From an uncultured Lentisphaerota bacterium (GTDB lineage: Bacteria; Verrucomicrobiota; Lentisphaeria; Victivallales; UBA1829): a stretch of DNA of 64,000 bases. Positions 19,010 to 48,378 of the stretch are shown here, in pieces (the first letter of the stretch is position 1; every line of letters starts with the position of its first letter). Both the position numbers and the translations under genes were made by a program. The stretch covers positions 1-64,000 of the forward strand of contig ONQZ01000031.1 of the NCBI GenBank assembly GCA_900320095.1, given 5' to 3'. The notes beneath the pieces are model-generated. The model was given only the letters and a program-made list of their open reading frames with translations, was not told the origin of the DNA and ran no database searches.

Positions 19010-19033
19010 AATGGATCCTTTGTTGTTTTGAAG

Positions 19034-28100: not shown

Positions 28101-28271
28101 TGCATCCAAGTAACCGCCGCTGCTGACATAAACACTCGCGCCGGAACTTACCAGAGCTCTGACGCTCCCGCCGGATTCCACGATCATGATCGCCTGATCG
28201 CTGATGTGGTAAACGTCGCTCGTGTATTTGCTGATGGTGTTAATTCCCCAGGAAAGATAAACCTGCGCCAT
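25200..28271 (-). CDS. AIDA-like/FG-GAP repeat protein, probable type I secretion cargo, C-terminus frameshifted
   Basis: A 1,023-residue protein. Residues 1 to about 720 are a run of degenerate repeats of about 20 residues, built on SSGG/SGGS turns, predicting a long beta-solenoid. After a linker, FG-GAP/VCBS-like blades with calcium-loop motifs follow (DIDGNGISD, DMNANGKAD, DFNGDGKDQ, DYNGDAKA). There is no signal peptide, and HlyD and ABC exporter genes follow on the same strand upstream of it in map order, which suggests type I secretion. The last 20 residues are out of frame. The original ending GVDMNWTVIA survives in another frame, and about 28 residues present in the paralogue at 2-112 are missing near 25,260. 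The ATG has an AAAGGA ribosome site. Confidence 0.82.
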   Translation of the reverse strand: MAQVYLSWGINTISKYTSDVYHISDQAIMIVESGGSVRALVSSGASVYVSSGGYLDADFFDSGTQLVVLLGGHVTYGYFESGADVSFREGSTLSRGTASSGGIVRVSGGNVYDFELRSDAKLIVSGDSFYRGYARGIDVKYKGAYMAVYSADANATKVSSGASLYIDKGGYAYNTSVYSSGKMTIASGGTAISNTINSGASMNLYSGGYAGSNYISSGGRVDVWNNGIVSMSYLSRSATMNVSSGGTALKTTLSAGGTLKVLSGGFASGTVMSGGAVSLQGSSTDGKYYGGVVSIGSGGYSYNEVFSNASTFVFSSGSGSGVVYGGTVGSGCKIIIFGGRFGGKTVSNAVFDLNGGNADVSGVNGAKALISGGVFFASGGGVMSSATVQPLSGTMGKMYVFSGTTATEVFVHPNAHLGIMSGGSVISGWIIPNSGGSGSATIGVSSGGKLGTAFVGGGNLEVGSGGTATVAYFSSGALGVVNGTIFSANVGSGCPLQVSSGGSVGTATISSGGRINLNQGKLGSAYVQRGGILSVNSGGSAGSGNVYGSAVVSYGGSATGLSVSSGGWLAVSAYGVAGGCTVYNGTVDVYSGGSFLKTAISQGGSVTLNNSAIALSCTVGSGGVMKVSSGALLNFFDVKAGGKVTGYYDCYGITFSSGGIADINIFNTSAGSTKPVLQNLYYAKNKGVTFTLTVSASQTKGTYKLADNASGFNETITVQNIYGDAFGTLKVGQTTNIGGVNYRLDLDSDSVLSVTVGAAAPAGSAKSDIDGNGISDVMFVWTGNNYAHGYWMNGTNTWQSANSNHPAEWDNLGCHDMNANGKADSVLFGNVTSEAGIHGAYEDNIDWKNTVGNLTGNAGRNSIVWYTYQLGALGVWTDGTENWVSMGSGFDATWTLIGCGDFNGDGKDQVVMSHNSGAEYHAIDIGGTWTSLGVSDSGWEVRAIGDFAGDGKDDIVAFHAETGIVAMWIDGVNSVTSWMQLGQLNASDWFVVGAGDYNGDAKARRRHELDRDRVSGRTNVPER

Positions 28272-30068: not shown

Positions 30069-32708
30069 CTTCGTTAAACCCCATTTGCTGTTTCCAGAAG
30101 TCGGCGTAGATACCGCCCTGTTCGAGCAGTTCCTTGTGTGTGCCCTGTTCGATCAGGTCGCCGTGGTCCATGACCACGATCCTGTCGGCGCGGCAGAGGA
30201 CGGAGAGGCGGTGGGAAATGATGAACACCGTACGGTTTCTGGCGATCATGTTCAGATTCTTCCGGACCATGGTCTCGCTTTCCGGGTCGAGTGCGCTGGT
30301 GGCTTCGTCGAAAATGAGGAAGCGCGGGTTCGGGAGGAGCGCACGTGCGATGGCGAGTCGCTGGCGCTGTCCGCCGGAGAGGTTGGAGGCGTTTTCCTCG
30401 AGGAGGGAATCGTATCCGCGGCTCATCTTCTGGATGAATTCGTCGGCGCCGGCGAGGCGGGCGGCGTAGATGATCTCCTCCATGGTGGCGTCCTTCTTCG
30501 TGAGGGACAGGTTCTCGCGGACGGTGCCGTAGAAGAAGTAGTTGTCCTGCAGCACGATGCCGATGGCGGAACGGAGGGATGCGCGGTCGATTTCGCGGAT
30601 GTCGATGCCGTCATATTTGATGATGCCGGTCTGGAGGGGATAGAGGCCCTGGATGAGCTTGGTGAGCGTGGTCTTGCCGGAACCGGAGCGGCCGACGAGG
30701 CCGATGGTGGAGCCGGGCGAGATGTGGAGGTTGAAGTCCTTGATGACCATCGGGGTGTCCGGGGAGTAGCGGAAGTTCACGTTTTCGATGGAGAGCTCGC
30801 CCTGGAGCTGGTGGTGGAGGGAGCCGCCGACCTGCTCCTGCGGGCAGTTCATGACGACGCCGAGCATGCGGACGGAGAGGAGGGTCTGCTGGTATTCGTG
30901 GACGAGGCCGACGATGTGGACCAGCGGGCCTGTGACGCGCCCGGAGAGCATCTGGAATGCGATGAGCTTGCCGACGGTGAGCGTGCCGTCGAAGACGGCG
31001 AGGGCGCCGATCCAGATGATGGCGATGAACATGAGCTTTTCGATGAGGCCGGAGAGGGTCTTGGCGGTGATGGAGATCTGCGCCACGCGGAAGTAACGCG
31101 TGATCGCGAACGCCGCCGTGTCGTTCCACTTGCGCTGTTGCGTGGGCTCGAGCGCGAGGGATTTCACGGTGCGGATGCCGTGGATGGTCTCCACCAGCAT
31201 CGCCTGGCGCTTGCCTTCCGCCATGTACAGCTCTTCGAGGCGGTGCTGGAACGGCTTGATGAGGAGCGCGATGACCAGCGCCATCATGAATGTGAAGAGC
31301 AGCACGACGCCGGTGAGGACCGGGCTGTAGATGAAGAGGAACGGCAGGAAGACCAGGAGGGAGAGGAGTTCCAGCGCGGTGTAGAACAGGCTGCCGGACA
31401 GGAACGAACGGATGCGCTCGGTCTGCTGCATGTGCTTGATGAGCACGCCGGACGAGATGCGTTCGTAGAAGTCGACCGGGAGTCCAGGATGGCGTTGACG
31501 CAGAGCATGATGGTGACGCCGATGCCGATGGTCATGAGCGTGACCCGGCCCTCGTTTACGAGCACCTTGTCGACAACGATCTGGAAGAACAGCGGGACGA
31601 CCAGGCCGATGGCGCTGATGGCGAGGATGGCGATGGCGACCTGCGCCAGCAGGGTCCTCTGGCGGAAAAATTCCGGGATGAACCAGCGGAGGCCGAACTT
31701 CTGGTTTTCGTCGACGATGGAGTAATGCTTCTTCACGAGGACGACGCGGTTGGAGTATTTCTCCTCCCACTCCTCCTTGTTGATGAAAACGACGCTCGGA
31801 CGGTGGCCGTCTGCCACGTAGGGATCCCAGATGGCGGCCTGCTGGACCGTCTTCGGCTTGTCGTCGGCGGGAGCTTCCTCCTGCTTCGCGGCCTCGGGTT
31901 CGGGATCGGCGCCGGGGACGACCTCGTCGGACTGCTTCAGCAGGGCTTCGGTCGTGAGCTTCGGCTTGCTGTCTTCCTCGGATTTGGGATAGGCGACGCT
32001 TTCGGGGACCTCGCGGACGCCGCAGAGGACGGCGAAACGTCCGTCCTTCTTGATCGCCATGCAGGGGAACGCCGCGCCGATCTTCGGGAGCTTGTCCCAC
32101 TTGACGTGGATTTCCTTCGTTTTGTATTCGAGGTCGTCGGCGATCTTGCCGAGGAGGCGGATGGAGGGTTCGTCCTCGGAGATCGCGTATTCGTGCATCA
32201 GGCGGCCGACGTCGGTGTCGTCGCCGTAATGCTTCACGATGGAGGCGAGGCAGTAGAGGGAGGTCTGTTTGCCGTCGACCGAGCAGCCGCGCATCTCCAT
32301 GCGGATGAAGACGGCCTTGCCGGACCAGGATTTGAGGAGCTGGTCCTTCTGGAGGAACAGCATCTTGCCCTGGACTTTGGTCAGCGGATCGAACACGGCG
32401 TAGCGTTCCTGCTGGACGCCGCCCTGCAGGAGCTTGCGGATGCCGAGATACAGCACCCAGTTGCCGTTGTTGAGCTGGAGGAAGATCGGCGCGCCGAAGA
32501 AGGAGGCGAGTTCCTCGATGGTGACGTCGCCGCGGCTTTCGGGCGCGAGCCGTAACTTGTTCGCGAGCTTCAGGCAGAGTTCCAGGGGGTCTTCGACGTT
32601 TTCAAGCGCGGACAGGAAGGCGTTGAGGTCGCCCGCCTGCGGCATCATCTTGATGATCTCCTGGAAGCACAGCAGAAGTGAGTTTCTGTTGTTGGGATTT
32701 TGACTCAT
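30058..32708 (-). pseudogene. Type I secretion ABC exporter, interrupted by a deletion/frameshift near 31,480
   Basis: Two frames together encode one HlyB-like exporter. The 5' part (from 32,708) has two C39-peptidase-like domains, the second at YCLASIVKHYGDD...AVLCGV without a catalytic cysteine at the usual place, then the first two membrane helices (IAILAISAIGLVVPLFF). At about 31,480 the sequence jumps from VNAILD to LPVDFYER in another frame; about 30 residues normally between these points are missing. The 3' part has the remaining helices, Walker A GRSGSGKTT, signature LSGGQRQR, Walker B FLIFDEATSALD and ISHRLS. The start MSQNPN is set by the promoter at 32,761. Either the exporter is dead or the assembly has an error here. 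Confidence 0.85.
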
Positions 32709-32760
32709 GAGATTTCCGTATTGGTTATGAATCGTACAAAAAATGGCTCCGAATTGCACT

Positions 32761-32789
32761 AATATAGCATCATTTTGCGGGCTTGTCAA
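32761..32789 (-). promoter_or_regulatory. Promoter for the ABC exporter-HlyD operon
   Basis: TTGACA (32784-32789) and TATATT (32761-32766) on the minus strand, 17-bp spacer. It places the transcript start inside the longer upstream frame, so the ATG at 32,708 is the likely start. Confidence 0.78.
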
Positions 32790-32900
32790 GCATGCCGGAG
32801 CAAAGAATTACTATAATTTACTAAAAAGTACGTCAAAAACACGGCGGGACGCCCCCTGTCCGTGCCCGCGGCCGCGGCGGACGTTTTCGGCGGGACGTGC

Positions 32901-33668
32901 TTATTTCGCGCCGAACGGGTCCAGCAGGAGCATGGTCGCGTTGTAAAGCCCGTGGATGAACGTCGCCGCGGCGAACCACGGGAACGCGTCGGAGATCCGG
33001 CAGGGACGCTCTTTCGCGAGGCTGTCGCGCCACACGCGGCGGAGGCCCATGGCGGACACCAGCGGACACAGCATGTGCAGCGCGGTGCACATGGTCCAGC
33101 GGAACGCCATCGCCGCCGCCAGTTTTTCCGGCGTGAAATTTCTCAGGTAGATGTACTGGTAGATGAGGTTTTCCAGCACGCTGAACACCAGGCCGCCCAG
33201 CATGCCGGACAGGAAGAACTGCCAGTCGTACCGGATCGAACCGCGCATCTTTTCCAGCTGGAAGATTGCGCCGCTCTGCTTCAGCGTCTCCTCGGCGAAC
33301 GGCCCGAGGACGACGAGGACGAAGGCCCCGGCGCTCAGGAAGGATACCGCCGAAAAAATGTTGGCGATCTCATTCAGGATCACGGCGGGAACGGCGAAGA
33401 AGCCGCCCGCGACGCCCGCGACGATTGAGATAAACGGAACGACCGTGCCGGAATAACGGTTCCGTTCCCGCCGAAGCAGCTCGCGGTATTCCGTCGAATC
33501 GCCGTCGCCCACGCCCGGCTCGAACGCCGTGGAGGAATAATAGCACGATTCGGAGTCCGTGATCTCCTCCCGTGCTTCGGGCAGATCCTCCGCCTGAGGC
33601 CGCTCCCGGTTCCGTTCCGGGTGCAGCGCGACCTCGTTTTCCACGGAAAAAAGGTTTTTCCTGTTCAT
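32901..33668 (-). CDS. PrsW-family intramembrane metalloprotease-like protein
   Basis: A 255-residue protein with a polar N-terminus of about 75 residues and about six membrane helices. The family motifs are all there: PFAEETLKQ (E-E-x-x-K), FSVLENLIYQ (E-N), RWTMCTALHM (R, H) and FIHGLYNA. PrsW proteins cut anti-sigma factors or act as related CAAX-type proteases; the target here is unknown. The start ATG overlaps the TGA of the preceding YbjQ-family gene (ATGA). It is the last gene of a three-gene leftward run with the two YbjQ-type genes. Confidence 0.82.
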   Translation of the reverse strand: MNRKNLFSVENEVALHPERNRERPQAEDLPEAREEITDSESCYYSSTAFEPGVGDGDSTEYRELLRRERNRYSGTVVPFISIVAGVAGGFFAVPAVILNEIANIFSAVSFLSAGAFVLVVLGPFAEETLKQSGAIFQLEKMRGSIRYDWQFFLSGMLGGLVFSVLENLIYQYIYLRNFTPEKLAAAMAFRWTMCTALHMLCPLVSAMGLRRVWRDSLAKERPCRISDAFPWFAAATFIHGLYNATMLLLDPFGAK

Positions 33669-34168
33669 CGCGAAACCGGGACCCGGAATGCCGTCCCGTA
33701 GGCGATCAGCTCCACGCCGCCGGACTTCTTTCTCGCCTCGCCGGAATTGATCGTGGACGTTTCGAAGCGGACGTTGCAGACCGCGTTCGCGCCGAAGTGC
33801 TCCGCCTCCTGAAGCATGCGGACCAGCGCCAGACGGCGCGCGTCGGAGCACATCCCGGTGTAGCCTTTCATCTCGCCGCCGAAGAGATGTTTGAACCCCG
33901 CGACAAACGAGATGAAGTAGTTGTCGGCGATCACCACGGCTCCGCTCACAAGCGTCGCGGACGAGCTTCCTGCGGGGAACTGTTTCAGGTTCGTGAGCGG
34001 GATCCTTTTCCGGAAATACTCCTCCTGCTCCGACAGCATCTTTCTGCGTGCCCGGACGATGTTGTGCTGGGTGATCCAGGTGGCGCCCAGCAGGATCGTC
34101 GGCATGACGACGTACCAGAACAGCGTGAAGATGCCCTGCACGACGTCTTTCGTTTCACCGTTTCCCAT
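33665..34168 (-). CDS. Membrane-anchored YbjQ-like protein
   Basis: A 167-residue protein with one N-terminal membrane helix (GIFTLFWYVVMPTILLGATWI) followed by a YbjQ-like domain (GGEMKGYTGMCSDARRLALVRMLQEAEHFGANAVCNVRFETSTI). YbjQ domains form pentameric rings; their biochemical role is uncertain, although heavy-metal binding has been proposed. It starts 2 bp after the stop of another YbjQ-type gene and overlaps the PrsW-like gene by 4 bp. The tandem of a soluble and a membrane-anchored copy suggests a mixed ring docked on the membrane; that is inference. Confidence 0.78.
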   Translation of the reverse strand: MGNGETKDVVQGIFTLFWYVVMPTILLGATWITQHNIVRARRKMLSEQEEYFRKRIPLTNLKQFPAGSSSATLVSGAVVIADNYFISFVAGFKHLFGGEMKGYTGMCSDARRLALVRMLQEAEHFGANAVCNVRFETSTINSGEARKKSGGVELIAYGTAFRVPVSR

Positions 34169-34170
34169 GT

Positions 34171-34495
34171 TCAAGCCTCCGCCGGGGTGTCGGGGACGGC
34201 GACCACGGCGGTGCCGTAGGCGTAAAGCTCGGCGGCGCCCGCGGTGATGCTGCTGGTGGCGAAGCGGACATTGACGATGGCGTTGGCGTGGAGCTCCTCG
34301 GCCTGTGCGATCATGCGCGCCACGGCTTCGCGGCGGGATTCGACCAGCAGCTCGGTGTAGCCGCTGAGCTCGCCGCCCACCAGGTTCTTGAGGGATGCCG
34401 CGATGTCCCGGCCCACGTGCTTCGCGCGGACGGTGTTGCCCTGGACCAGGCCTTTGAGTCATGCCGGGGATGGTTTCGGTATTGACGACGATCAT
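34171..34495 (-). pseudogene. YbjQ-family gene with a frameshift near its start
   Basis: The frame opening at 34,495 gives MIVVNTETIPGMTQ, a normal YbjQ beginning, but the rest (GLVQGNTVRAKHVGRDIAAS..., ending VVAVPDTPAEA) lies in another frame. The switch is near 34,455, within CATGACTCAAAGGCC. A few residues usually found between these parts are absent, so a short deletion of a non-multiple of three is likely. A shorter product from an internal ATG at 34,416 would lack the first strand. It follows its own promoter (34,549-34,576) and precedes the membrane-anchored YbjQ gene by 2 bp. Confidence 0.72.
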
Positions 34496-34548
34496 GTATC
34501 AGTCTCCTTGAACGTGTTTTTTCGGGGGTGTGAAGGGGGTTGCCGTTT

Positions 34549-34576
34549 AATATAATCACCTGACAAATATAATCAA
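34549..34576 (-). promoter_or_regulatory. Promoter for the YbjQ-YbjQ-PrsW run
   Basis: TTGATT (34571-34576) and TATATT (34549-34554) on the minus strand, 16-bp spacer; back to back with the plus-strand promoter at 34,588. Confidence 0.68.
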
Positions 34577-34587
34577 GTCCGGAAACC

Positions 34588-34616
34588 TTGAAAGATGTTT
34601 ATTTGCTAAATATAGT
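34588..34616 (+). promoter_or_regulatory. Orphan rightward promoter
   Basis: TTGAAA (34588-34593) and TATAGT (34611-34616), 17-bp spacer. No rightward gene follows; the next genes on this side read leftward. A short RNA or antisense transcript starting near 34,623 is possible. Confidence 0.55.
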
Positions 34617-34627
34617 AGCGGCGGGCA

Positions 34628-34673
34628 AAAAAACAAAACGCAAAACGCCGCACGGAAAACGGGTCCCGTGCGG
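34628..34673 (-). terminator. Terminator of the sugar ABC transporter operon
   Basis: CCGCACGG (34,648-34,655) pairs with CCGTGCGG (34,666-34,673). On the minus strand it is followed by CGTTTTGCGTTTTG and a T-run. It lies about 100 bp after the permease stop. Confidence 0.65.
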
Positions 34674-34696
34674 CCGCGGCAGGCTGTGCTGAAATG

Positions 34697-34719
34697 GTGC
34701 GCGGCTTATGCTCGCGCAC
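34697..34719. repeat. Dispersed REP-like palindrome, copy 2
   Basis: A 23-bp imperfect palindrome (arms GTGCGCG / CGCGCAC) related to 169-191. The preceding GAAATGGTGCGCGGC is repeated exactly at 39,231-39,245, at the other end of the sugar transporter operon. Confidence 0.5.
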
Positions 34720-34771
34720 ACGAAAGGGTGTCTTCCCTGTCCGGCAGGTGTGCCGGAAGAGGATCCGGGGA

Positions 34772-35755
34772 TCAGGTGGCTTTCCGGCGGGTCGCGATCT
34801 GGTCGGCGGTCACGGCGACGATGATGATGAGGCCGATCACGACGAGCTGGACGTTCGTGGAGATGTCGAGCAGGGTGAGGCCGTTGCGGAGGAAGCTGAT
34901 GAGCAGCGTGCCGATGACGGTGCCCATCATTGTGCCGCGTCCGCCGGAGGGGGCGCAGCCGCCAATGATGCAGGCCGCGACGATGTCGAGTTCGAGCGAG
35001 ATGCCGGCGGTGGGCTGGGCCGTGCTGGCGCGGGCCACGGTGATCATGGATGCGAGGCCGACGAGCGCGCCAGTGAGGGTGTATATCCAGACGAGCGTCT
35101 TGTTCACGTTGATGCCGGCGTGGAACGCGGTCTGGACGTTGGAACCGATGGCGTAGGTGTAGCGTCCGAAGCGGGTGTGTTTCAGGAGGAACCAGAAGGC
35201 GACCATGACGATGACGAGCAGGATCACGGAGGAGGGGATGCCCGCGACGCGTCCGGTGTCAAGCCAGCTGTAGTCGGAGACGGCGAACGGCTTGCCCGCG
35301 TTCATGATGTAGGAGATGCCGCGGAAGATGCTCATGGTGCCGAGCGTGACGATAAACGGTGCGAGTTTCAGTTTCGTGATCAGCATGCCGTTGGCGAAGC
35401 CGCAGACGGCGCCCGCGAGCACGCAGACGAGCGTGCCGGCGATCATCGCGCCGAGCTTCAGGTGGATGTAGCTGCCGGACGAGATGTCGGCCCAGGTCCC
35501 GCCGGAAAAATACAGCATGGACGCCGCGCCGATCATGCCGCACACGGCGAGCATGGAGCCGACGGAGAGGTCAATGCCGCCGGTGATGATGATGTAGGTC
35601 ATGCCGGCCGCCATGATGCCGTTGATGGAGGAACGGCAGAGGACGTTAAGCATGTTCTGGGTGGAAAGGAAATTGTCCGGCTCCAGGAACGTGCAGAGGG
35701 AAATGATGAAGATGAGGGAGCAGAACGGAAGCAGTTGTTTTGCGAAGCGGTTCAT
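34772..35755 (-). CDS. Sugar ABC transporter permease (RbsC-like)
   Basis: A 327-residue inner-membrane permease of the ribose/xylose/galactose class with about ten helices. Family marks are GMTYIIITGGIDLSVGSMLA and, near the end, GGCAPSGGRGTMMGTVIGTLL. It works with the ATPase gene 25 bp upstream and the double binding protein before that, so the operon reads binding protein-ATPase-permease. The sugar cannot be told from the permease. A terminator follows at about 34,650. Confidence 0.93.
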   Translation of the reverse strand: MNRFAKQLLPFCSLIFIISLCTFLEPDNFLSTQNMLNVLCRSSINGIMAAGMTYIIITGGIDLSVGSMLAVCGMIGAASMLYFSGGTWADISSGSYIHLKLGAMIAGTLVCVLAGAVCGFANGMLITKLKLAPFIVTLGTMSIFRGISYIMNAGKPFAVSDYSWLDTGRVAGIPSSVILLVIVMVAFWFLLKHTRFGRYTYAIGSNVQTAFHAGINVNKTLVWIYTLTGALVGLASMITVARASTAQPTAGISLELDIVAACIIGGCAPSGGRGTMMGTVIGTLLISFLRNGLTLLDISTNVQLVVIGLIIIVAVTADQIATRRKAT

Positions 35756-35780
35756 ATGGATAATACTCCTGAGTTGAGTG

Positions 35781-37277
35781 TCAGCAGACGGCGAAGTGCA
35801 TGACTTCTTCCTGTGTGGTTTTGGCGGTTTCGAGCTGTTTGGCGAGTCGCTTCCTGCGGAAGACGAGCAGGCGGTCGCAGATGCCGAAGAGCTCGGGCAG
35901 CTCGGACGAGATCACGAGGACGCCCTTGCCCGCGGCGGCGAGCTCGTTGATGAGCGTATAGATCTCCTTCTTCGCGCCGACGTCGATGCCGCGCGTGGGC
36001 TCGTCGAAGATGATGAAGTCCGGATTGGCGAGGAGCCAGCGCGCCACAAGAAGTTTCTGCTGGTTGCCGCCGGAAAGCGAGGACGCTTCGTCATACGGGG
36101 ACGCCCACTTGAGCTTGACTTTGCCGCCGTATTCGTCCATGAGCGCCTGTTCCTTTCCGAAGTTCAGGAGCCATTTCATGCCGGTCGCCTCGTAGTTCGG
36201 GAGCATGATGTTGTCCCGGCAGGGCAGGGCGACGCAGAGGCCGCAGCGCTTGCGGTCCTCGGGGAGATAGGCGATGCGCCCCGCGATGGCGTCGGCGGGC
36301 GTCTTGATGTGGAGTTCCTTCCCGTTCAGGAAGAGCTTGCCCGCGGTGAGCGGCTGGAGTCCGAAGATCGCGCGCGCGGTCTCGGTGCGGCCCGCGCCGA
36401 CGAGTCCCGCCATGCCGACGACTTCGCCGCGGCGGACCTGGAACGAGATGTCTTCGATGCCTTCGTCGGAGGCGAGATTTTTCGCCTCGAAGCAGACGTC
36501 GCCGATCTCGACGCTGCGCGGCGGGTAGTAGTCGGAAAGCTCGCGGCCGACCATCTCGTGCACGATGCGCTGGACCGTGTACTCGGAGAGCGGGCCGGAG
36601 GAGACGACCGCGCCGTCGCGCAGGATGCTGATGTCGTCGGCGAGGTCCATGACCTCTTCCAGACGGTGCGAGATGTAGATGATGGTGAGGCCGCGTTTGC
36701 GGAGGTCCTTCACGATGGAGAAGAGCTGTTCGGCCTCCTTCTCGGAGAGCGAGGACGTCGGCTCGTCCATCACGATGATCTTCGCGTTGCGTTCCAGCGC
36801 CTTCAGCAGCTCGACGATCTGGCAGTCGCCGGTCGACAGCGTACTGATGAGCGCGTCCGGATCGAGGTCGAAATTATTTTCCTTGATGATGGCGCGGGCG
36901 CGTTCGCGCATCGCCCTGGAATCCATGCGCCCGAACTTCATGATCTCGCGCCCGAGGAAGATGTTGTCCGCGACGGTAAGGTCGCCCGCCAGGTCGAGTT
37001 CCTGGTAGAGCATGGAGATGCCGCGGTCGAGCGAGTCCTTCGGGGAGAGCAGTTCGACGCGTTCGCCGAAGAGCTCGATATAGCCGGAGTCCGGCGTGTG
37101 GATGCCGGAGAGGACTTTCATGAGGGTGGATTTGCCGGCGCCGTTTTCGCCGCAAAGGGCGTGCACGGTGCCCGGGCGCGCCGAGAAGCTGACGCCGGAC
37201 AGGGCTTTCACCGGGCCGAACGTCTTGACGATGTCGTGCATCGCCAGAGAGTAGGTTTGAGGAGATTTGTTGTCCAT
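35781..37277 (-). CDS. Sugar ABC transporter ATPase, two-domain (RbsA/MglA-like)
   Basis: A 498-residue protein with two fused ABC domains, normal for this class. The first is fully equipped: GENGAGKSTLMK, the signature LSTGDCQIVELLKAL, Walker B IIVMDEPTSSLSE. The second has the degenerate P-loop GLVGAGRTETAR with LSGGNQQKLLVARWL and FIIFDEPTRGID. It energises import through the RbsC-like permease. It starts 3 bp after the binding-protein stop and ends 25 bp before the permease. Confidence 0.95.
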   Translation of the reverse strand: MDNKSPQTYSLAMHDIVKTFGPVKALSGVSFSARPGTVHALCGENGAGKSTLMKVLSGIHTPDSGYIELFGERVELLSPKDSLDRGISMLYQELDLAGDLTVADNIFLGREIMKFGRMDSRAMRERARAIIKENNFDLDPDALISTLSTGDCQIVELLKALERNAKIIVMDEPTSSLSEKEAEQLFSIVKDLRKRGLTIIYISHRLEEVMDLADDISILRDGAVVSSGPLSEYTVQRIVHEMVGRELSDYYPPRSVEIGDVCFEAKNLASDEGIEDISFQVRRGEVVGMAGLVGAGRTETARAIFGLQPLTAGKLFLNGKELHIKTPADAIAGRIAYLPEDRKRCGLCVALPCRDNIMLPNYEATGMKWLLNFGKEQALMDEYGGKVKLKWASPYDEASSLSGGNQQKLLVARWLLANPDFIIFDEPTRGIDVGAKKEIYTLINELAAAGKGVLVISSELPELFGICDRLLVFRRKRLAKQLETAKTTQEEVMHFAVC

Positions 37278-37280
37278 ACG

Positions 37281-39176
37281 TCAGAGTCCCAGTGCGGCCG
37301 GGTTTTCTTTTTTCTGCTCTTCAAGATTGTTCTTGTCGACGATCATGCTGGGGATCGGTTTGAGCTTGTCGACCTTTTTCCCGTCGAGGATGTCGACCGC
37401 AGTCTTGACGCCGGTGTAACCGATCTTGTAGGGATCCTGCACGATGAGGGAGTCGACTTCGCCTTTTTCGATGCCTTCGAGGAGGACGGGGTCGGAGTCG
37501 AACCCGACGAACTTGACTTTGCCGGTGAGCTTCTGGCTCTGAAGCGCTTTGTACGCGCCGACGGACGTGGGCTGGTTCACGGCGAAGAGACCGTCGATGT
37601 CGTTATGCTTGGTGAGCATGTCGACGGTCTTCTGGCGGGCGTCCTCGACCGTGCCGAGCGTGTACTGTTCCGCGACGAGTTCGATGCCGGGGAATTCCTT
37701 CGAGAGCGTTTCCTTGAAGCCTTTTGCACGGTCTTCGGTGGAGGCGGAATTCTGGATGAAGCATGTGAGGATGACCTTGCCATGTCCGTTCAGGGCCGCG
37801 CCCAGACGGCGTGCGGCGTCCGCTCCGCCCTCGACGTTGTCCGTGGCGGCGAAGGAGTCGTATTTGTCGGTTTCGAGGCTGGAGTCGATGATCACGACCG
37901 GGATGCCGGAGGCTTTCACCTTTTCGACCGGGCGGACGAGCGCCTTCGCGTCGTTCGGGCCGAGCACGAGCGCGACCGCGCCGCGGGTGAGGGAATCCTC
38001 GACAGACTGGATCTGCTTTTCACGGTCGTTTTCCTGTTCGGGGCCGTTCCAGCTGATTTTGTAGCCTTCCTCTTCGCCGGCCTTTTCCGCGCCCTTGCGG
38101 ACGACTTCCCACCACATGGAGGCGGTGCCCTTCGGGATGACGGCGATGGTCTTGCCGGTCTGCGCCTTACTCTCTTTGGGCTTGCCGGAGGTGAGGCCAA
38201 GAGCGGCGGGGAATTTCGCTTTCATTTCATCAAGGTTGGACTTGTCGACGATCATGCTGGGGATCGGTTTGAGCTTTTCAACGGACTTGCCCTGGAGGAT
38301 CGCGACGGCGGTTTTCACGCCGGAGTAGCCGATCTCGAAGGGGTTCTGGACGATGAGGGAGTCGACCTCGCCCTTTTCGATGCCTTCGAGGAGGACGGGG
38401 TCGGAGTCGAAGCCGACGAATTTCACTTTGCCGGTCAGACCTTGCGTCTGGAGCGCCTTGTACGCGCCGACGGAGACGGGCTGGTTGACCGCGAAGACGC
38501 CGTCGGTGTCGCTGTGCTTGGTGAGCATGTCGACGGTCTTCTGGCGGGCGTCCTCGACCGTGCCGAGCGTGTACTGTTCGGCGATCAGCTCGATTCCGGG
38601 GAATTCCTTCGCGAGCGTTTCCTTGAAGCCTTTGGCCCGGTCGTCGGTGGAGGCGGAGTTCTGGATGAAGCAGGTAAGGATGACCTTGCCGTGGCCGTTC
38701 AGTGCCGCGCCGAGACGGCGCGCAGCTTCGGCTCCGCCCAAGACGTTGTCCGTGGCGGCGAAGGAGTCGTACTTGTCGGTCTCGATGCTGGAGTCGATGA
38801 TCACGACGGGGATGCCGGTTCCCTTGGCTTTTTCGACCGGGCGGACGAGCGCCTTGGAGTCGTTCGGGCCGAGCACGAGCGCCTTGATGCCGTGCGTGAG
38901 GGCGTCTTCGACCGACTGGATCTGCTTCTCGCGGTCGTTTTCCTGTTCGGGGCCGTTCCAGCTGATGGTGTAGCCTTCTTCCTTGCCGGCCTGTTCCGCG
39001 CCGCTGCGGACGACTTCCCACCACATGGAGGCGGTGCCCTTCGGGATGACGGCGATGATGTTGCCGGACTTGTTTGCGCCGGAGGTCATGTGCTGGATCT
39101 TCCGGATGACGCCGGAAGTAAACAGCACGGCCGAGACGGCGAGGATCAGAATGACCGCGATGTTGTTCTTTTTCAT
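37281..39176 (-). CDS. Tandem double sugar-binding protein of an ABC importer
   Basis: A 631-residue protein containing two complete periplasmic-binding-protein (type I, ribose/allose-like) domains in a single chain, residues 41-328 and 344-631. They are about 85-90 percent identical over 288 residues, both opening IAVIPKGTASMWWEVV and both keeping the ligand-contact regions (NGPEQENDR, FAATDNV, FVGFDSDP). A linker of about 15 residues joins them. The N-terminus has one hydrophobic helix (about 6-22) with no lipobox, so it may be an uncleaved anchor or a signal peptide. The usual family length is near 320. A recent in-frame duplication of 909 bp explains it. It begins the operon with the ATPase and permease. 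Confidence 0.93.
   Translation of the reverse strand: MKKNNIAVILILAVSAVLFTSGVIRKIQHMTSGANKSGNIIAVIPKGTASMWWEVVRSGAEQAGKEEGYTISWNGPEQENDREKQIQSVEDALTHGIKALVLGPNDSKALVRPVEKAKGTGIPVVIIDSSIETDKYDSFAATDNVLGGAEAARRLGAALNGHGKVILTCFIQNSASTDDRAKGFKETLAKEFPGIELIAEQYTLGTVEDARQKTVDMLTKHSDTDGVFAVNQPVSVGAYKALQTQGLTGKVKFVGFDSDPVLLEGIEKGEVDSLIVQNPFEIGYSGVKTAVAILQGKSVEKLKPIPSMIVDKSNLDEMKAKFPAALGLTSGKPKESKAQTGKTIAVIPKGTASMWWEVVRKGAEKAGEEEGYKISWNGPEQENDREKQIQSVEDSLTRGAVALVLGPNDAKALVRPVEKVKASGIPVVIIDSSLETDKYDSFAATDNVEGGADAARRLGAALNGHGKVILTCFIQNSASTEDRAKGFKETLSKEFPGIELVAEQYTLGTVEDARQKTVDMLTKHNDIDGLFAVNQPTSVGAYKALQSQKLTGKVKFVGFDSDPVLLEGIEKGEVDSLIVQDPYKIGYTGVKTAVDILDGKKVDKLKPIPSMIVDKNNLEEQKKENPAALGL
37284..38147 (-). 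repeat. Tandem gene-internal duplication, second unit
   Basis: Encodes residues 344-631 of the binding protein; matches 38,193-39,056 with a period of 909 bp. Confidence 0.9.
38193..39056 (-). repeat. Tandem gene-internal duplication, first unit
   Basis: Encodes residues 41-328 of the binding protein; matches 37,284-38,147. Confidence 0.9.
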
Positions 39177-39261
39177 GGGGTGGAGCGACTCCTGTTTTTC
39201 TGTGTTATATGTTTTGGTTTAAATGCAAAGGAAATGGTGCGCGGCAGTGCGCAAACGCAAA

Positions 39262-39290
39262 ACTATAATCTTTTTTCCGCGAAAAATCAA
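39262..39290 (-). promoter_or_regulatory. Promoter for the sugar ABC transporter operon
   Basis: TTGATT (39285-39290) and TATAGT (39262-39267) on the minus strand, 17-bp spacer. Confidence 0.68.
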
Positions 39291-39376
39291 GCTGACTTAT
39301 GAAAAAAAACGTTTTTAACGTAAGAATAACGCAGGGAAGGCGGCGGGATCAGCAGGAAAAGCCCTGTTTTTGAAAC

Positions 39377-39423
39377 GTTACCGGGAAAGATACCGCGGCG
39401 GTATCGACCGCCTTCCCGATAAC
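39377..39423. promoter_or_regulatory. 47-bp nested palindrome between the sugar operon and MATE gene
   Basis: GTTACCGGGAA (39,377-39,387) faces TTCCCGATAAC (39,413-39,423) with one mismatch; inside, GATACCG and CGGTATC form a perfect 7-bp hairpin with a 3-base loop. It sits between two divergent promoters and could be a repressor operator or a cruciform. The rest of 39,177-39,551 holds only the two promoters. Confidence 0.5.
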
Positions 39424-39479
39424 CACGGAAAACGCCGGATGTTTTTTCGGGACAATCGTGAAAATATTGCTGAAAACAT

Positions 39480-39507
39480 TTGAAAATAAAAGAATATGAT
39501 GTATATT
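39480..39507 (+). promoter_or_regulatory. Promoter for the MATE gene
   Basis: TTGAAA (39480-39485) and TATATT (39502-39507), 16-bp spacer. It rules out start codons before about 39,514. Confidence 0.72.
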
Positions 39508-39551
39508 ATATGTTCAAACTTTTTCAGACACTTTCCCCTTTTCTCGCTAAA

Positions 39552-41081
39552 ATGTCATCACTTCAACATGCTTCCGGCGTTACCCCGAAAAAGAACGGCC
39601 CGGTCGGTTTCCTGAAACGGCTCGTCGCCCTGATCCGCGGACGGGAGGGCGACAACAAGACCTACACAAAGGGGCCGATCGCCGGCACGATGCTGCGCAC
39701 GGCGCTCGTGATGCTGCCCGGTACGCTCGCGATCAGCGGCTACAATCTGGTCGACGCGTACTTCGTGGGGCGTCTGGACGGCGACGCGCCGATGGCGGCG
39801 ATCGGGCTGACCGCGCCGCTCGTGATGATCTGCGGCTGCCTGTTCCACGGGCTGTCCGCGGGCGTGATGACGACGACCGCGCAGGCGTTCGGCGGGAAGC
39901 GCCGCTGGCGCGCGGAACAGCTCGTGAGCACGGGATTGCTCCTGATCACGCTTTTCTCGTTTACGCTGGCGGTCCTCGGGCCGCTCGCGACGCGCGGCAT
40001 TTTCAAGTTCGTGAAACACGCCTCGCCGGAAGCGATCCGGCTTGCCACGGCGTATATGGACATCTGGTTCTGGGCGTGCGTGTCGTCCGCGCTCGGCATG
40101 AGCGGGAACAACCTGCTCGTGACCGCCAACGATTCCAAGATGGCGAGCGCGACGATGGTGCTGGGGCTTGCCTCGAACGCCTTCCTCGACCCGCTGTTCA
40201 TGTTCCGGAAGGAAATCTGCGGCGTCCCGCTCGGGTTCGGCTTGGGTGTGGTCGGCGCGGCGTGGGCGACCGTGATGGCGCAGGTGATCGGCACGAGCGC
40301 GGTCCTGCTGATCCTGTGGCTGAAACACCATCTGATCCGGTTCCGCGCGATCCGGTTCGCGAAGCTGGCGAGCCTGTGGAAACGTATCATCTCGTTCGCC
40401 ATCCCCGCCTCGCTCGGCTCGCTGATGCTGCCGATCGGGATGTCCATCATGACGTGGATCACGTCGCATTTCGGCGACGTGGTGATAGGCGCGGTCACGG
40501 CGGCGCAGCGCGTCCAGGCGATCGCGTTCTTCTTCCCGATGTCGCTGGGCGTGTCCCTGCTGCCGATGATCGGGCAGAACTACGGCGCGCGCCTGTACAG
40601 CCGCATCAACGGCTGCCGCCGTTTCGCCATGCGCTTTGCCTTCCTGTACCTGATGACGATGTCCGTCCTGTTCTTCATCTTTGCGCCGGAGATCGCCGGG
40701 AAATTCCTCGCCGACGACAAGGTCGAGATGCGCACCGTGATGGCGTTCGCGCTGCGGATCCTGCCGTGGGGCTTCGCGTTCCTGGAGGCGCACCGCTACT
40801 CCGGGTTCTTCTTCACCGGATGCGGACGCCCGATGGCGGCGGCGATGCTGAACGCGATGCGTATCCTCGGGTTTCTGGTGCCGCTCTCGCTGCTGGTCCT
40901 GCTGTATTTCCGCCTGACGGGCAACGAGGACACGGCACTGACGCTGCTGCTCGTGTCGCAGATGGCTGCGGACGTGTTCGCGGGCACCATCGCGATCATT
41001 CTGGCGCGGCGCCTCACGAGACGGTTCCCCGCCGACGGCGAATCGGAGTCGTTCGGACGGAACCGCCGGATGTTCGACTGA
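39552..41081 (+). CDS. MATE-family multidrug/sodium antiporter
   Basis: A 509-residue membrane protein with about 12 helices in two related halves, each opening with the MATE pattern (PGTLAISGYNLVDAYFVGRLDG; PASLGSLMLPIGMSIMTWITSHFGD). It would exchange Na+ or H+ for cationic drugs or metabolites. The start MSSLQHAS is chosen because the promoter places earlier candidates at or before the transcript start; its ribosome site is poor, so the exact start is uncertain. It is not closely linked to the following S41 protease gene, which has its own promoter. Confidence 0.9.
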   Translation: MSSLQHASGVTPKKNGPVGFLKRLVALIRGREGDNKTYTKGPIAGTMLRTALVMLPGTLAISGYNLVDAYFVGRLDGDAPMAAIGLTAPLVMICGCLFHGLSAGVMTTTAQAFGGKRRWRAEQLVSTGLLLITLFSFTLAVLGPLATRGIFKFVKHASPEAIRLATAYMDIWFWACVSSALGMSGNNLLVTANDSKMASATMVLGLASNAFLDPLFMFRKEICGVPLGFGLGVVGAAWATVMAQVIGTSAVLLILWLKHHLIRFRAIRFAKLASLWKRIISFAIPASLGSLMLPIGMSIMTWITSHFGDVVIGAVTAAQRVQAIAFFFPMSLGVSLLPMIGQNYGARLYSRINGCRRFAMRFAFLYLMTMSVLFFIFAPEIAGKFLADDKVEMRTVMAFALRILPWGFAFLEAHRYSGFFFTGCGRPMAAAMLNAMRILGFLVPLSLLVLLYFRLTGNEDTALTLLLVSQMAADVFAGTIAIILARRLTRRFPADGESESFGRNRRMFD

Positions 41082-41225
41082 GCGCGGCGTTTTTCGCCCG
41101 TTTTCCGTCCATTTTTCGTCTGTTTCCCGTCTGTTTCCCGTCCGGTTTCCGCCTCAAAAAATGTTTCCTCCGGCGTCCCTCTGTCCCGCCGGGGCAAAAA
41201 GACCCTGTTTTTTTGCAAAAACGAT

Positions 41226-41254
41226 TTGAAAGTGGGGGCAAAAGGCATTAGATT
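41226..41254 (+). promoter_or_regulatory. Promoter for the S41 protease operon
   Basis: TTGAAA (41226-41231) and TAGATT (41249-41254), 17-bp spacer, 40 bp before the chosen start. Confidence 0.65.
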
Positions 41255-41293
41255 ATTGTGATAAAGATTTTGTTCACGATGCGAGGCTTCCTC

Positions 41294-42619
41294 ATGAAAC
41301 GATTCCAGACGATATTGATCCTGCTGGCCCTGACGGCCGGCATTTTTACGCGGGCGGCGGACGACACGGTCCCCATGCCCGCGCAGAATCCGCAGCAGCC
41401 GCTTCCCGAGATCCGGCTGGACGACGACGCGTGCAAGGAAATGATCACGTTCCTGTACGGGCTTTCGCTGCTCCGGACGCACTACGTGGACGGCAGCAAG
41501 ACGAGCTACCGCGACATGTTCCGTTCGGCGCTGCGCGGCGTGATGCAGGACCTCGACCGGTTCAGCAACTTCGAGACGCCGCAGTCGTTCGAGGAGACGC
41601 AGAAGGATTTCTCTGCGCAGTTCGGCGGGGTCGGCGTCACGCTGTCCACGAAGAACGGCGTGCTGGAGATCGTGAACGTCACGGAGGACGGTCCCGCCGA
41701 AAAGGCCGGGATCAAGGCGGGCGACGTGATCGTGAAGATCGACGGGAAGGACCTGAACAAGCTCAAACTCTCCGACTGCATCGGCATGCTCCGCGGCGAG
41801 GTCGGCACCACGGTCGAGCTCGGCGTGCGGCGCGCGGGCGTGAAGGACGAACTCTCCATGCACGTGGTGCGCGGCACGGTCGAAGTGCCGAGCGTGGTCG
41901 GCGCGCACATCCTGCCGGACAGCGGCGGCATCGGCTATCTCCGTATCCTCCAGTTCTCCCGCGACACGCCGGGCCGTCTGGACGCCGCGCTTGCCAGGCT
42001 CTCCGCCGAGGGCATGACCTCGCTGGTCATCGACCTGCGGAACAACCCCGGCGGCATCGTGGACAGCGCGGTCGAGGTGTGCAGCCGGTTCGTGAAGGAG
42101 GACCAGACGCTCGTCACGCTCGAATGGCGCGACCCGTCCAAGAACCAGACTTACAAGACGGTGAACTGCACGAAATACTACAACCTGCCGGTAATCCTGC
42201 TCGTGAACGGCAATTCCGCCAGTGCCTCCGAGCTGTCCGCGTCCGCGCTGCGCGACATGAAGCGCGTGGTCGTGCTCGGCGAAAAGACGTTCGGCAAGGG
42301 CTCCGCGCAGAACATCATGCCCATCGGCGACCTCGGCGCGCTCCGCATCACCGTGGCGCACTACTTCACCCCGTCGCACACGCCCATCCACGGCGTCGGC
42401 CTCCAGCCCGACATCACGGTCGAGATACCGCCCCAGAAACAGCAGGCGTTTTATGCGCAGCTGAACGACTATCCCGGCGTGATCGACCCCGGCCTGGCGG
42501 ACGGCGTCCGCGACGTCCAGCTGGAACGCGCCGTCGAGATCCTCCGCAGCGCCTCGGTCCTGGAGTCCGTGAAGGAATCCGGCCCCGCTTCCGAAACCAA
42601 TTCCACAACAAGGAAATAA
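41294..42619 (+). CDS. S41-family C-terminal processing protease
   Basis: A 441-residue exported serine protease. A signal peptide (MKRFQTILILLALTAGIFTRA) precedes a short N-terminal domain, a PDZ domain (GGVGVTLSTKNGVLEIVNV...AGIKAGDVIVKIDGKDL) and the catalytic domain. The nucleophile serine lies in NGNSASASELSAS, and the general-base lysine in LGEKTFGKGSAQ, as in CtpA. It would trim or degrade periplasmic proteins. The ATG at 41,294 has GAGG upstream and gives the cleanest signal peptide; GTG (41,258) and ATG (41,279) starts are possible. It is followed 4 bp later by a lipoprotein gene. Confidence 0.93.
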   Translation: MKRFQTILILLALTAGIFTRAADDTVPMPAQNPQQPLPEIRLDDDACKEMITFLYGLSLLRTHYVDGSKTSYRDMFRSALRGVMQDLDRFSNFETPQSFEETQKDFSAQFGGVGVTLSTKNGVLEIVNVTEDGPAEKAGIKAGDVIVKIDGKDLNKLKLSDCIGMLRGEVGTTVELGVRRAGVKDELSMHVVRGTVEVPSVVGAHILPDSGGIGYLRILQFSRDTPGRLDAALARLSAEGMTSLVIDLRNNPGGIVDSAVEVCSRFVKEDQTLVTLEWRDPSKNQTYKTVNCTKYYNLPVILLVNGNSASASELSASALRDMKRVVVLGEKTFGKGSAQNIMPIGDLGALRITVAHYFTPSHTPIHGVGLQPDITVEIPPQKQQAFYAQLNDYPGVIDPGLADGVRDVQLERAVEILRSASVLESVKESGPASETNSTTRK

Positions 42620-42623
42620 CATC

Positions 42624-43199
42624 ATGAGACTTCGCCACTGCCTTTCCCTTTTCCTGTTCGCCGCCGTGTTCGCCCTCTGCGGCTGCGCGCACCAGATGAT
42701 CGTTTCCGAGGTGCTGCAGATCCCGGAGCAGGCCCCGATCTACACCCGCTACAACCTGTGGTACACCGACCCGATGCGGATGGACACGCTGAACATGCTT
42801 CAGGGCGAGATCCTGCCGTTCGGCACGGAGGTCGTCATCACGTCCGCGTCCGACCGCGAGATCTGCTTCACCACGGTGAAGGACAAGCGCGATTTCCGCA
42901 TCAAATACACCGACGACTACCGCTTGATGTCCGCCGAGGACTATGTGCGCGAGCTCTTCTCCACGAAGAACGAATCCGACCTCACGGTCGGCATCCGCGC
43001 GCTCACGATCGAAAAACTGAAGGCGGGCATCGTCGAGAAGGGCATGACCCGGCAGGAAGTCGAACTCGCGTTCGGTCCGCCGTGCGCGTTCCGCACGCCG
43101 TCGCCCTCGCTGGATACCTGGTGCTTCTGGACGGAATACCTGGTCGGCAAGCGTATCATCTTCACCCGGAACGTCGTTTCGGACATCCTCGTCCTTTAA
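42624..43199 (+). CDS. Small lipoprotein with an SmpA/BamE-like C-terminus
   Basis: A 191-residue protein with a lipoprotein signal ending ALCGC (cysteine at residue 21). Near the C-terminus, KAGIVEKGMTRQEVELAFGPPCAF...DTWCFWTEY follows the pattern of SmpA/OmlA (BamE-like) domains, which read G-M-(S/T)-xx-E-V...G-x-P and then a Trp-rich strand. The middle (about 30-110) is not recognised. A role in outer-membrane upkeep is plausible given the protease gene 4 bp upstream. proC starts 18 bp later on the same strand. Confidence 0.7.
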   Translation: MRLRHCLSLFLFAAVFALCGCAHQMIVSEVLQIPEQAPIYTRYNLWYTDPMRMDTLNMLQGEILPFGTEVVITSASDREICFTTVKDKRDFRIKYTDDYRLMSAEDYVRELFSTKNESDLTVGIRALTIEKLKAGIVEKGMTRQEVELAFGPPCAFRTPSPSLDTWCFWTEYLVGKRIIFTRNVVSDILVL

Positions 43200-43217
43200 T
43201 CTTTTGAGGTTCACAGC

Positions 43218-44042
43218 ATGAAAAAGACAGTCAGCAAAAAGACATCCCGCATCGCGGTCATCGGCGCCGGAAAAATGGCGACCGCGATCACCGTTTCCCT
43301 CGTTTCCAAAGGCGTCCCCGCCTCGTCCATCCTCGCGTACGACGTCAGCGCCGCCGCCGCGAAGAAGTTCACCGACGCCACGGGCTGCAAGACCGCCGCG
43401 ACGCTCGCCGACACCCTGAAGGACGCCTCGACCGTCCTGCTGGCCGTGAAGCCGCAGGTCGCCCCGTCCGCGCTGAAGGAAGCCGGAGCCGCGCTTCGCG
43501 GGAAGCTCCTGATCTCGATCGTCGCCGGGCTCAAGCTCGAATCCCTGGCGGCGCTCGCGTCCACGAACCGCATCGTCCGCGTGATGCCGAACACGCCCGC
43601 GCTCGTTCAGCAGGGTATGACGTGTTTCGCCATGTCGCCTAAGGCCACTGCCGCTGACCGCGACTGCGCGCAGGAGATCCTGTCCAGCTTCGGACTCGTC
43701 CGCGAGGTGCCGGAGTCTCTGCTCGACGCCGTGACCGGCCTGAGCGGAAGCGGCCCCGCGTTCGTGATGGAGTTCATCCTCGGTCTCGCCGAGGGCGGCG
43801 TCTACTGCGGCCTGCCGCGCGACCTCGCCGTCGAATCCGCCATCCAGACCGTGCTCGGCACCGCCGAAATGTGCAAACGCGACCCGCAGGCGATCTCCGC
43901 GCTGCGCAACGCGGTCATCACGCCGAACGGCACCACGGCGCGCGGGATCCACGTGCTCGACGTCGCCGGATTCCGCGGCATCGTGGAGAACTGCGTGATC
44001 GCGGCGGCGGAACGTTCCGCCGAGCTCGGCCGCAAGAAATAA
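43218..44042 (+). CDS. proC: Pyrroline-5-carboxylate reductase
   Basis: A 274-residue NADP(H)-dependent enzyme for the last step of proline synthesis. The Rossmann fold opens with IAVIGAGKMATAI, where GxGxM fits the family. MPNTPALVQQGM and the C-terminal signature AVTGLSGSGPAFVMEFILGLAEGG are both diagnostic. The C-terminus NAVITPNGTTARGIHVL is also standard. It is one of four rightward genes (protease, lipoprotein, proC, NfeD-like) ending at a strong terminator. Confidence 0.96.
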   Translation: MKKTVSKKTSRIAVIGAGKMATAITVSLVSKGVPASSILAYDVSAAAAKKFTDATGCKTAATLADTLKDASTVLLAVKPQVAPSALKEAGAALRGKLLISIVAGLKLESLAALASTNRIVRVMPNTPALVQQGMTCFAMSPKATAADRDCAQEILSSFGLVREVPESLLDAVTGLSGSGPAFVMEFILGLAEGGVYCGLPRDLAVESAIQTVLGTAEMCKRDPQAISALRNAVITPNGTTARGIHVLDVAGFRGIVENCVIAAAERSAELGRKK

Positions 44043-44100
44043 AGGTTTCCGTTTTCCGAAAAACAAACCATCCCCTTCCGGGGAAGACAAGGAGGCAAAT

Positions 44101-44685
44101 ATGATCGTTCTCGGTACCATCAGCGAGTTTATGAACGGCGGCGGCATGATGTCCGTCTACTGGGGATTCGCCATCGGCGGATCCGCGATCTTCGCCATCA
44201 CGGCCATCGCGGCCCTCTTCGGGATGGGCGGGGCCGAATCCGGCGACGTCGACGTGGATATGGACGGCGAGATCGACATCGTCCACCCCGATTCCGGCAT
44301 CTTCGACTTCAAACTGATCTCCTTCCGGTCCATCCTGGCCTTCATCGCCATGTTCGGCTGGGGCGGCGTGGTGTTCGGCGAATACGGCTGGAAAGGTTTC
44401 GGCGTCGCCATCGCATGCGGCCTCGTGACCATGGTCATCACCGCCTACCTCATCATGTCCATCCTGAAGCTCCAGCAGAGCGGCACGCGCGCGAACGCGT
44501 CGCTCGTCGGGCAGAAGGGCACCGTGTACCTCGCCATCCCGGCGGGCGGACGCGGCAAGGTCATCCTCGACCTCGGCGACTCCACGCGCGAGATCGCGGC
44601 GTTTTCCGAGGTCGCGCTGGAAAAGGGCGCACCGGTCGTCACGACCGCGCTGAAGGCCGAAGTCTTCACGGTGAAACCGCTCTGA
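44101..44685 (+). CDS. NfeD-like membrane protein
   Basis: A 194-residue protein with three membrane helices (about 18-40, 75-92 and 100-122) and a C-terminal OB-fold-like beta domain (VGQKGTVYLAIPAGGRGKVILDLGDSTREIAAFSE). This plan matches the NfeD family, whose members often pair with stomatins or membrane proteases. No stomatin gene adjoins it. An acidic stretch between helices one and two (GDVDVDMDGEIDIV) is notable and may bind cations. It has an AGGAGG-like site and is the last gene before the terminator at 44,714. Confidence 0.75.
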   Translation: MIVLGTISEFMNGGGMMSVYWGFAIGGSAIFAITAIAALFGMGGAESGDVDVDMDGEIDIVHPDSGIFDFKLISFRSILAFIAMFGWGGVVFGEYGWKGFGVAIACGLVTMVITAYLIMSILKLQQSGTRANASLVGQKGTVYLAIPAGGRGKVILDLGDSTREIAAFSEVALEKGAPVVTTALKAEVFTVKPL

Positions 44686-44713
44686 TCCTTTTTCCGAAAG
44701 AAAGCCAAAAAAG

Positions 44714-44748
44714 CCGGCGCCCGTTGCTTGCGGACGCCGGTTTTTTTT
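44714..44748 (+). terminator. Rho-independent terminator after the NfeD-like gene
   Basis: A 10-bp GC stem with one mismatch (44,714-44,723 with 44,731-44,740), a 7-base loop and eight T residues. Confidence 0.9.
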
Positions 44749-44773
44749 AGAGGGGGAACTCAATTCTTATTTT

Positions 44774-45223
44774 TCAGGCGGATTCGTGCTTGGCAATACG
44801 TTTTGCGGCGGTCGACCGATGGGGCGCCGTTTCTTTCTTGTGCGGACGTCCGCCCTTCAATCCGTTACGGCGGCTTGCGGCGGCTTTCCGAGCTGATTTG
44901 ACCTGACCGAGGATTCGGGCGGCACTGCGGCTTCTGGCCTTGAGCCAGGATTCCACGGAAATCTTTTCGGGGAACTGTTCCGGGTGTTCCAGAGCCTCGA
45001 TCGGCAGGTCGATTCCGATTGTATTCCAGTACACGCCCCAGCGGTCCGCCGTGACCTCGCGCAATTCCGTCGCGCAGCAGTATTCGAACCACGGGAAGTC
45101 CGCATAGCGCAGGAAATAATCCTTTCCGTTGACCAGGATCGCCATGCCCTCGTCGGTCGTCCCGAGGAAGCAAGTCTTATTCTCCGATGTACTGATCCCA
45201 AGCATCTCGGCAAAGCTGTTCAT
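44774..45223 (-). CDS. DUF2442-family protein with basic tail
   Basis: A 149-residue protein. Residues 20-90 follow the DUF2442 pattern (ILVNGKDYFLRYADFPWFEYC...WGVYWNTIGIDLPIEALEHPEQFP). The tail is basic with SRRNGLKGGRPHKK, an AT-hook-like motif that may bind DNA. Its start lies 47 bp inside the upstream DUF4160 gene, so the two are translationally linked. DUF4160-DUF2442 pairs are common in bacteria and have been suspected to be toxin-antitoxin-like, without firm proof. Convergent with the NfeD-like gene across a terminator. Confidence 0.78.
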   Translation of the reverse strand: MNSFAEMLGISTSENKTCFLGTTDEGMAILVNGKDYFLRYADFPWFEYCCATELREVTADRWGVYWNTIGIDLPIEALEHPEQFPEKISVESWLKARSRSAARILGQVKSARKAAASRRNGLKGGRPHKKETAPHRSTAAKRIAKHESA

Positions 45224-48299: not shown

Positions 48300-48378
48300 A
48301 ATGAATGGCTCCTTGTTTTTGAGTATATGCCATTTGCGGTGCACTCAAACGGGGTGAAGATGCGGATGCGTTTTCTTT

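Follow-up and report, generated by a model that had tools for sequence, protein, structure and literature searches.

The locus described here encodes a CUT2-type sugar importer with a substrate-binding protein (SBP) that has two binding domains in a single chain. The question is whether the second domain is an inherited part of the transporter, and whether it serves a second ligand or adds binding sites for the same one.

Organization of the operon and of the double binding protein

The window, i.e. the whole stretch of 64,000 nucleotides that was analysed, contains the following features of the transporter, all of which are located on the minus strand:

37281..39176, minus strand: double SBP gene, 631 aa plus stop (ORF list, Pfam, AlphaFold2)
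39096..39176, minus strand: hydrophobic leader, residues 1-27, motif SAVLF..GV.[RK]K, probable membrane anchor (hydropathy, conservation)
39057..39095, minus strand: variable stalk, residues 28-40, from the anchor to domain 1 (conservation; low pLDDT at 28-37)
38193..39056, minus strand: binding domain 1 (D1), residues 41-328, Peripla_BP_4 (Pfam)
38148..38192, minus strand: inter-domain linker of 15 residues, 329-343, TSGKPKESKAQTGKT (unit alignment, AlphaFold2)
37284..38147, minus strand: binding domain 2 (D2), residues 344-631, Peripla_BP_4 (Pfam)
35781..37277, minus strand: ATPase gene, 498 aa, two ABC_tran domains in one chain, CUT2/RbsA-like (Pfam, NCBIfam)
34772..35755, minus strand: permease gene, 327 aa, BPD_transp_2, RbsC-like (Pfam, NCBIfam)

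The double SBP gene starts with ATG, its reading frame is intact throughout, and the repeated units are spaced by 909 nt from start to start and in frame. An earlier reading of the DNA from the sequence alone (the sequence-only reading) had thus given the exact coordinates of the gene, though not its strand, and the correct repeat length without loss of frame. Two Peripla_BP_4 stretches were detected by Pfam (E 3.5e-129), and the two complete domains announced by that reading are indeed present; to call them nearly identical was a slight overstatement, as D1 and D2 share 86.8% identity at the protein and 86.1% at the DNA level (288 codons). The double SBP gene comes first in the operon; the ATPase gene and the permease gene (BPD_transp_2, E 5.6e-43) lie downstream of it in the same orientation, so that the ORF list and Pfam agree with the statement that only one ATPase and one permease accompany the two domains. 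The genome contains the double SBP gene in one copy, and its three Peripla_BP_4 matches are represented by D1, D2 and one single-domain protein encoded at another site. The top NCBIfam matches of SBP, ATPase and permease are CUT2-type sugar transporters, all with scores below the equivalog cut-offs. With an SBP of the Peripla_BP_4 fold, an ATPase chain with two ABC domains and a BPD_transp_2 permease, all components of a CUT2 importer were found, and the double SBP system is an inherited variant of this well-known transporter type.

The first 27 residues of the double SBP include a 19-residue stretch with a mean hydropathy of 2.72. Residues 1-42 of the window protein contain no cysteine and hence no lipobox of an SBP lipoprotein. 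In an alignment of 24 sequences, residues 10-27 are 55% identical; the corresponding values are 62% in the domain and 12% in the stalk (residues 28-38). Shared leader residues are S15 (23 of 24), L18 (24 of 24), G22 (22 of 24), K or R at position 25 (24 of 24) and K26 (23 of 24). Since such conservation is not what one would expect of a signal peptide that is cleaved off, the leader is probably a single inner-membrane anchor helix. A simple lipobox pattern occurred in 4 of 56 rows, mostly distant ones, and some lineages may use a lipid anchor instead.

The AlphaFold2 model of the double SBP (32 rows) reached a mean pLDDT of 88.7 and a pTM of 0.49, with pLDDT values below 50 at residues 28-37 and 330-336; domain 1 modelled together with the leader reached 91.4 and 0.80, respectively. 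Each domain is confidently folded in the prediction and the linker is disordered, and the low pTM of the double protein is consistent with two domains that are independent of each other and flexibly linked.

Among the other genes of the window, a RelB-like antitoxin (PF04221) and a PIN_3-domain protein are encoded as a pair at 17417-18198 (plus strand), with low third-position GC (GC3) compared with the rest. Two further low-GC3 genes adjoin this pair at 18236-20266 (minus strand), one without a Pfam match and one encoding a Double-GTPase 2 (DO-GTPase2) protein, and they may constitute a foreign island. The glycoside hydrolases GH115 (45567-48344), GH2 (2798-5671) and GH3 (60225-62324) are likewise encoded on the minus strand, as is a 1023-aa protein (25203-28271) with AIDA stalk-like and FG-GAP-like matches that is probably a large surface protein.

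Binding pocket, ligand and divergence of the two domains

Searches of the PDB returned ribose- and other sugar-binding proteins of the RbsB-like type, e.g. 4rxt and 2dri. The binding pocket was aligned by means of a list of 12 positions that we take to be the ribose contacts of E. coli RbsB. D1 and D2 carry the same residue at all 12 equivalent positions, namely K46, S50, W52, W53, G103, D128, S129, R180, G205, N231, D257 and Q277. The positions matching D89, R141, N190, D215 and Q235 of RbsB hold the same residue as RbsB. The residues at the other seven positions are not those of RbsB, an argument against ribose as the ligand. All fixed differences between D1 and D2 fall outside the 12 pocket positions; position 234 is V in D1 and T in D2, and residues 278, 280 and 281, which adjoin the pocket glutamine, also differ. 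Because the pockets agree at 12 of 12 positions, the likeliest predicted role of the doubling is to provide more binding sites per transporter rather than a second ligand, and the identical pockets are compatible with affinities that may differ between D1 and D2.

The comparison with ribose-class importers in the sequence-only reading is correct for the transporter class, but ribose as the ligand is not supported: the whole protein, in two stretches, scored 217.6 bits with the RbsB equivalog NF007936, below the cut-off of 337, and the operons of relatives indicate a 6-deoxyhexose, probably L-fucose. Aldo/keto reductases, Zn-dehydrogenases and Amidohydro_2 proteins are encoded next to single-domain relatives (L054, L051, L072, L083 and L080). 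The top match of the L054 amidohydrolase is L-fucono-1,5-lactonase (261 bits, cut-off 400), and at 1e-15 it has a single match in the PDB, the 4dlf group, presumably fuconolactonase. In L052 and L053, a distant fucose-isomerase-like gene is located directly upstream (140 and 137 bits, respectively, cut-off 775). The genome of the window encodes a true FucI on a different contig (1062 bits, cut-off 775) as well as an L-rhamnose isomerase, and no sugar-catabolism gene was seen directly adjoining the window operon. Among the 197 genomes of the class, FucI was present in 22 of the 27 transporter genomes, defined by an SBP match with an E-value of at most 1e-89, versus 124 of the 170 others (Fisher p 0.48), i.e. 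no co-occurrence of FucI with the transporter beyond the class background was detected. The L-rhamnose isomerase family is as widespread in the class (163 of 197). The FucP permease was not found in the 13 congeneric genomes, all of which contain genes of the alpha-L-fucosidase family, including one without the transporter. L-Fucose is our best guess for the ligand, with about an even chance of being correct.

The divergence of the domains was followed across the congeneric genomes. The dN/dS ratio between D1 and D2 ranged from 0.15 to 0.22 in eight genomes, and amounted to 0.065 within D1 and 0.073 within D2; these ratios indicate that both domains are under purifying selection. D1 and D2 are distinguished by 25 amino-acid differences that are fixed across six genomes. 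The residue that is commoner among single-domain proteins is held by D2 at 13 and by D1 at 12 of these positions, and therefore neither domain is a degenerate unit. When the fixed differences were painted along the units, D2-type stretches became apparent in D1 of L039 near codons 222-234 and 270-292, where a conversion-like tract spanning codons 198-235 encloses the pocket residue N231. D1-type stretches are present in D2 of L037, a mosaic pattern that could reflect an older state rather than conversion. A run test for mosaic tracts, which permutes the variable sites and takes no account of constraint that varies along the domain, yielded p < 0.01 in five of eight genomes, 0.025 in the window, 0.18 in L033 and 0.60 in L032. 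By these patterns, patchy conversion between D1 and D2 appears to have homogenised tracts of the gene. The description of the duplicated gene as homogenous is thus apt for such tracts, but not for the units as a whole with their 86% DNA identity and fixed amino-acid differences.

These data bear on a specialised tandem, in which D1 and D2 would differ in the sugar that they bind, or in their affinity for a shared sugar, and thereby widen the range of the importer, as in GlnPQ. Some division of labour is possible in view of the differences fixed across six genomes, of the dN/dS ratios that are higher between than within the units, and of D1-type and D2-type residues that are retained despite conversion elsewhere. 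However, these differences lie outside a pocket that is identical at every aligned position, and a tract such as that of L039 around N231 would tend to erase differences in specificity. We consider a specialised tandem unlikely, though worth keeping in mind.

Distribution and origin of the doubled gene

The double form was present in 10 of the 13 congeneric genomes when relatives were searched, as the sequence-only reading had proposed. It is complete in eight of them and incomplete in G003, where the contig end falls within domain 2, and in G011, where the gene is divided between two contigs with a gap. The D2 of G011 (L041 and L048) lacks 35 residues in frame, and this odd second unit is probably an assembly gap in near-identical repeats, since the break resumes at the same residues where the D1 part of the contig begins. 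The congeners G002 and G007 encode a single-domain SBP, and no SBP of this transporter was found in G006. The single gene of G002 has the same neighbourhood as the window, with flanking blocks of 81-96% DNA identity; of the two single-form congeners, it is G002 for which synteny was established. The records of the congeneric loci are metagenome-assembled genomes, several of which are titled Victivallales or Lentisphaeria and derive from goat, sheep or yak rumen, and the eight complete double loci come from separately assembled genomes of RUG-named, goat, sheep and yak rumen sets. All eight contain exactly two units, and the variable copy number envisaged for such a gene was not encountered. 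A locus with three units, which was also considered, did not occur among them.

A protein tree of 62 rows was calculated with a quick method, omitting L061, in which the start motif was not found by the pattern, and the fragments L041 and L048. In this tree D1 (9 rows) and D2 (9 rows) are parted by one branch with a support of 93, both group together (94), and the single protein of G002 is their sister (93). The topology places one duplication within the rumen Victivallales genus, before its ten double-form genomes separated, with vertical inheritance thereafter. A separate observation concerns the operon of G002 (L040, 6001-9508), the proteins of which are 90% (ATPase), 69% (SBP) and 75% (permease) identical to those of the window operon; divergence is faster in the parts that contact the substrate than in the motor, which may reflect a ligand change or a replacement.

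Beyond the genus, the fused form appears to be rare among ribose-class importers, in agreement with the expectation of the sequence-only reading. A query spanning the junction was matched across the junction only by this genus among the matches listed for the 197 class genomes, 136 of which had a match, and no fused double SBP was detected beyond the genus among the matches listed for 387 phylum genomes, 102 of which had a match at 1e-20. In six further genomes (L106-L111), SBP matches lie in long open frames, each of which encodes one SBP domain. No relative of the double SBP was found on viral contigs, and the best 15 of 1003 matching plasmid records are single stretches of approximately 0.8-1.0 kb. 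No Rfam family matched at the gathering threshold within 30000-45000. In the accessible literature, which includes few subscription papers, the listed results for SBPs that are fused or in tandem, for fucose SBPs and for Victivallales of the rumen included GlnPQ and OpuA but no paper on a fused double CUT2 SBP, which does not prove that none exists.

Doubling without fusion was detected in other lineages. Among 55 collection loci, in which an ATPase gene lies within reach after the SBP gene in 49 and both ATPase and permease genes in 46, three contain two consecutive separate SBP genes:

L105 (= L068), 2061-3125 and 3168-4169: unfused SBP pair, followed by one ATPase/permease set
L076, 498-1565 and 1583-2551: unfused SBP pair, followed by a permease only
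L085, 2759-3595 and 3848-4678: unfused SBP pair, followed by ATPase and permease

The UBA1776 genome of L068 contains two SBP reading frames, both of which encode a hydrophobic leader, upstream of the ATPase and permease genes, and the phylum search additionally revealed two adjacent SBP matches with open frames of differing length in G392, G334 and G273. As the doubled loci belong to different lineages, the SBP of this family appears to have been doubled on several occasions and fused on one, and this recurrence suggests repeated selection for more sites.

The same distribution could be explained without any benefit of tethering, if a fusion generated by unequal crossing-over was fixed in the ancestor of the genus and simply provides two domains per transcript. 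A neutral or dosage-only origin of this kind is consistent with a duplication that arose once, with the single form that G002 keeps at the syntenic locus and with the unfused doubling in other lineages. It is difficult to reconcile with strong purifying selection on both domains in ten species genomes and with a linker that is held at 14-15 residues while its sequence varies, and is in our view improbable. An artefactual second unit, for which the metagenomic origin of the genomes and the broken, gapped version of G011 at contig ends might speak and which the sequence-only reading had named as the finding that would overturn it, is excluded, since the units differ at 13% of their residues and the same diverged units and junction occur in eight complete, separately assembled loci.

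The reading that we prefer, to which we assign a probability of roughly 0.6, is that of an anchored double SBP for one ligand, which offers two capture sites per anchor and was duplicated once in the genus. One N-terminal helix would hold the double chain in the inner membrane, and D1 and D2 would have one sugar in common as their ligand, probably L-fucose or a 6-deoxyhexose resembling it. The two domains would alternate in docking on one permease dimer, so that the undocked domain could be loaded meanwhile, and the two capture sites per anchor of the tethered chain would raise the local concentration of loaded domain. In this the chain would act like the tethered tandem of GlnPQ; docking, alternation and a gain in rate are steps that we infer. 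A broader proposal, in which the self-anchored double SBP for one ligand owes the likeness of its domains partly to conversion, belongs to a family with recurrent doubling and reflects selection on the number of tethered sites per permease, is tentative and stands at somewhat less than even odds.

Significance and comparison with known transport systems

Work on the number and the tethering of binding domains as a limit on ABC import appears to have centred on importers of amino acids and osmolytes, i.e. GlnPQ and OpuA. The related bacteria compared here offer single, unfused double and fused double forms of one sugar importer within the same operon context, and direct measurements of the effects of tethering and of site number should therefore be feasible. 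If the broader proposal is true, the family lends itself to testing whether uptake is limited by the number of SBPs. The locus moreover demonstrates that a repeat of such kind, when met in an assembled metagenome, may be genuine and inherited, and it adds to the biology of the rumen an importer, probably for a deoxysugar, of an uncultured genus.

The system resembles CUT2 importers of the RbsABC type (PF13407) in the combination of SBP, double ATPase and permease in one operon, and in the RbsB fold of each domain with the conserved D, R, N, D and Q pocket positions. It differs from them by two SBP domains per chain and by a hydrophobic N-terminal helix free of a lipobox, and its ligand is probably not ribose.

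GlnPQ of Lactococcus lactis carries the tandem domains SBD1-SBD2, which are membrane-tethered and joined by a flexible linker of 14 aa, and which bind independently, with transport depending on the length of the linker (PMC8025302). Tandem binding domains and a flexible linker, 14 aa in GlnPQ and 15 aa here, are thus common to both systems. GlnPQ is an amino-acid importer with domains that are fused to the permease and differ in their ligands. By contrast, the permease of the present system is encoded by a separate gene (34772-35755), and its domains probably sit on an anchor of their own and share the same pocket residues.

In OpuA, the binding domains are attached to separate permease chains, one to each, whereas both domains of the present SBP are part of one chain, apart from the permease. 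The OpuA transporter possesses two binding domains for one ligand (PMC11065425). The unfused doubled SBPs of L068, L076 and L085 belong to the same transporter family as the double SBP of the window, but are encoded by separate genes.
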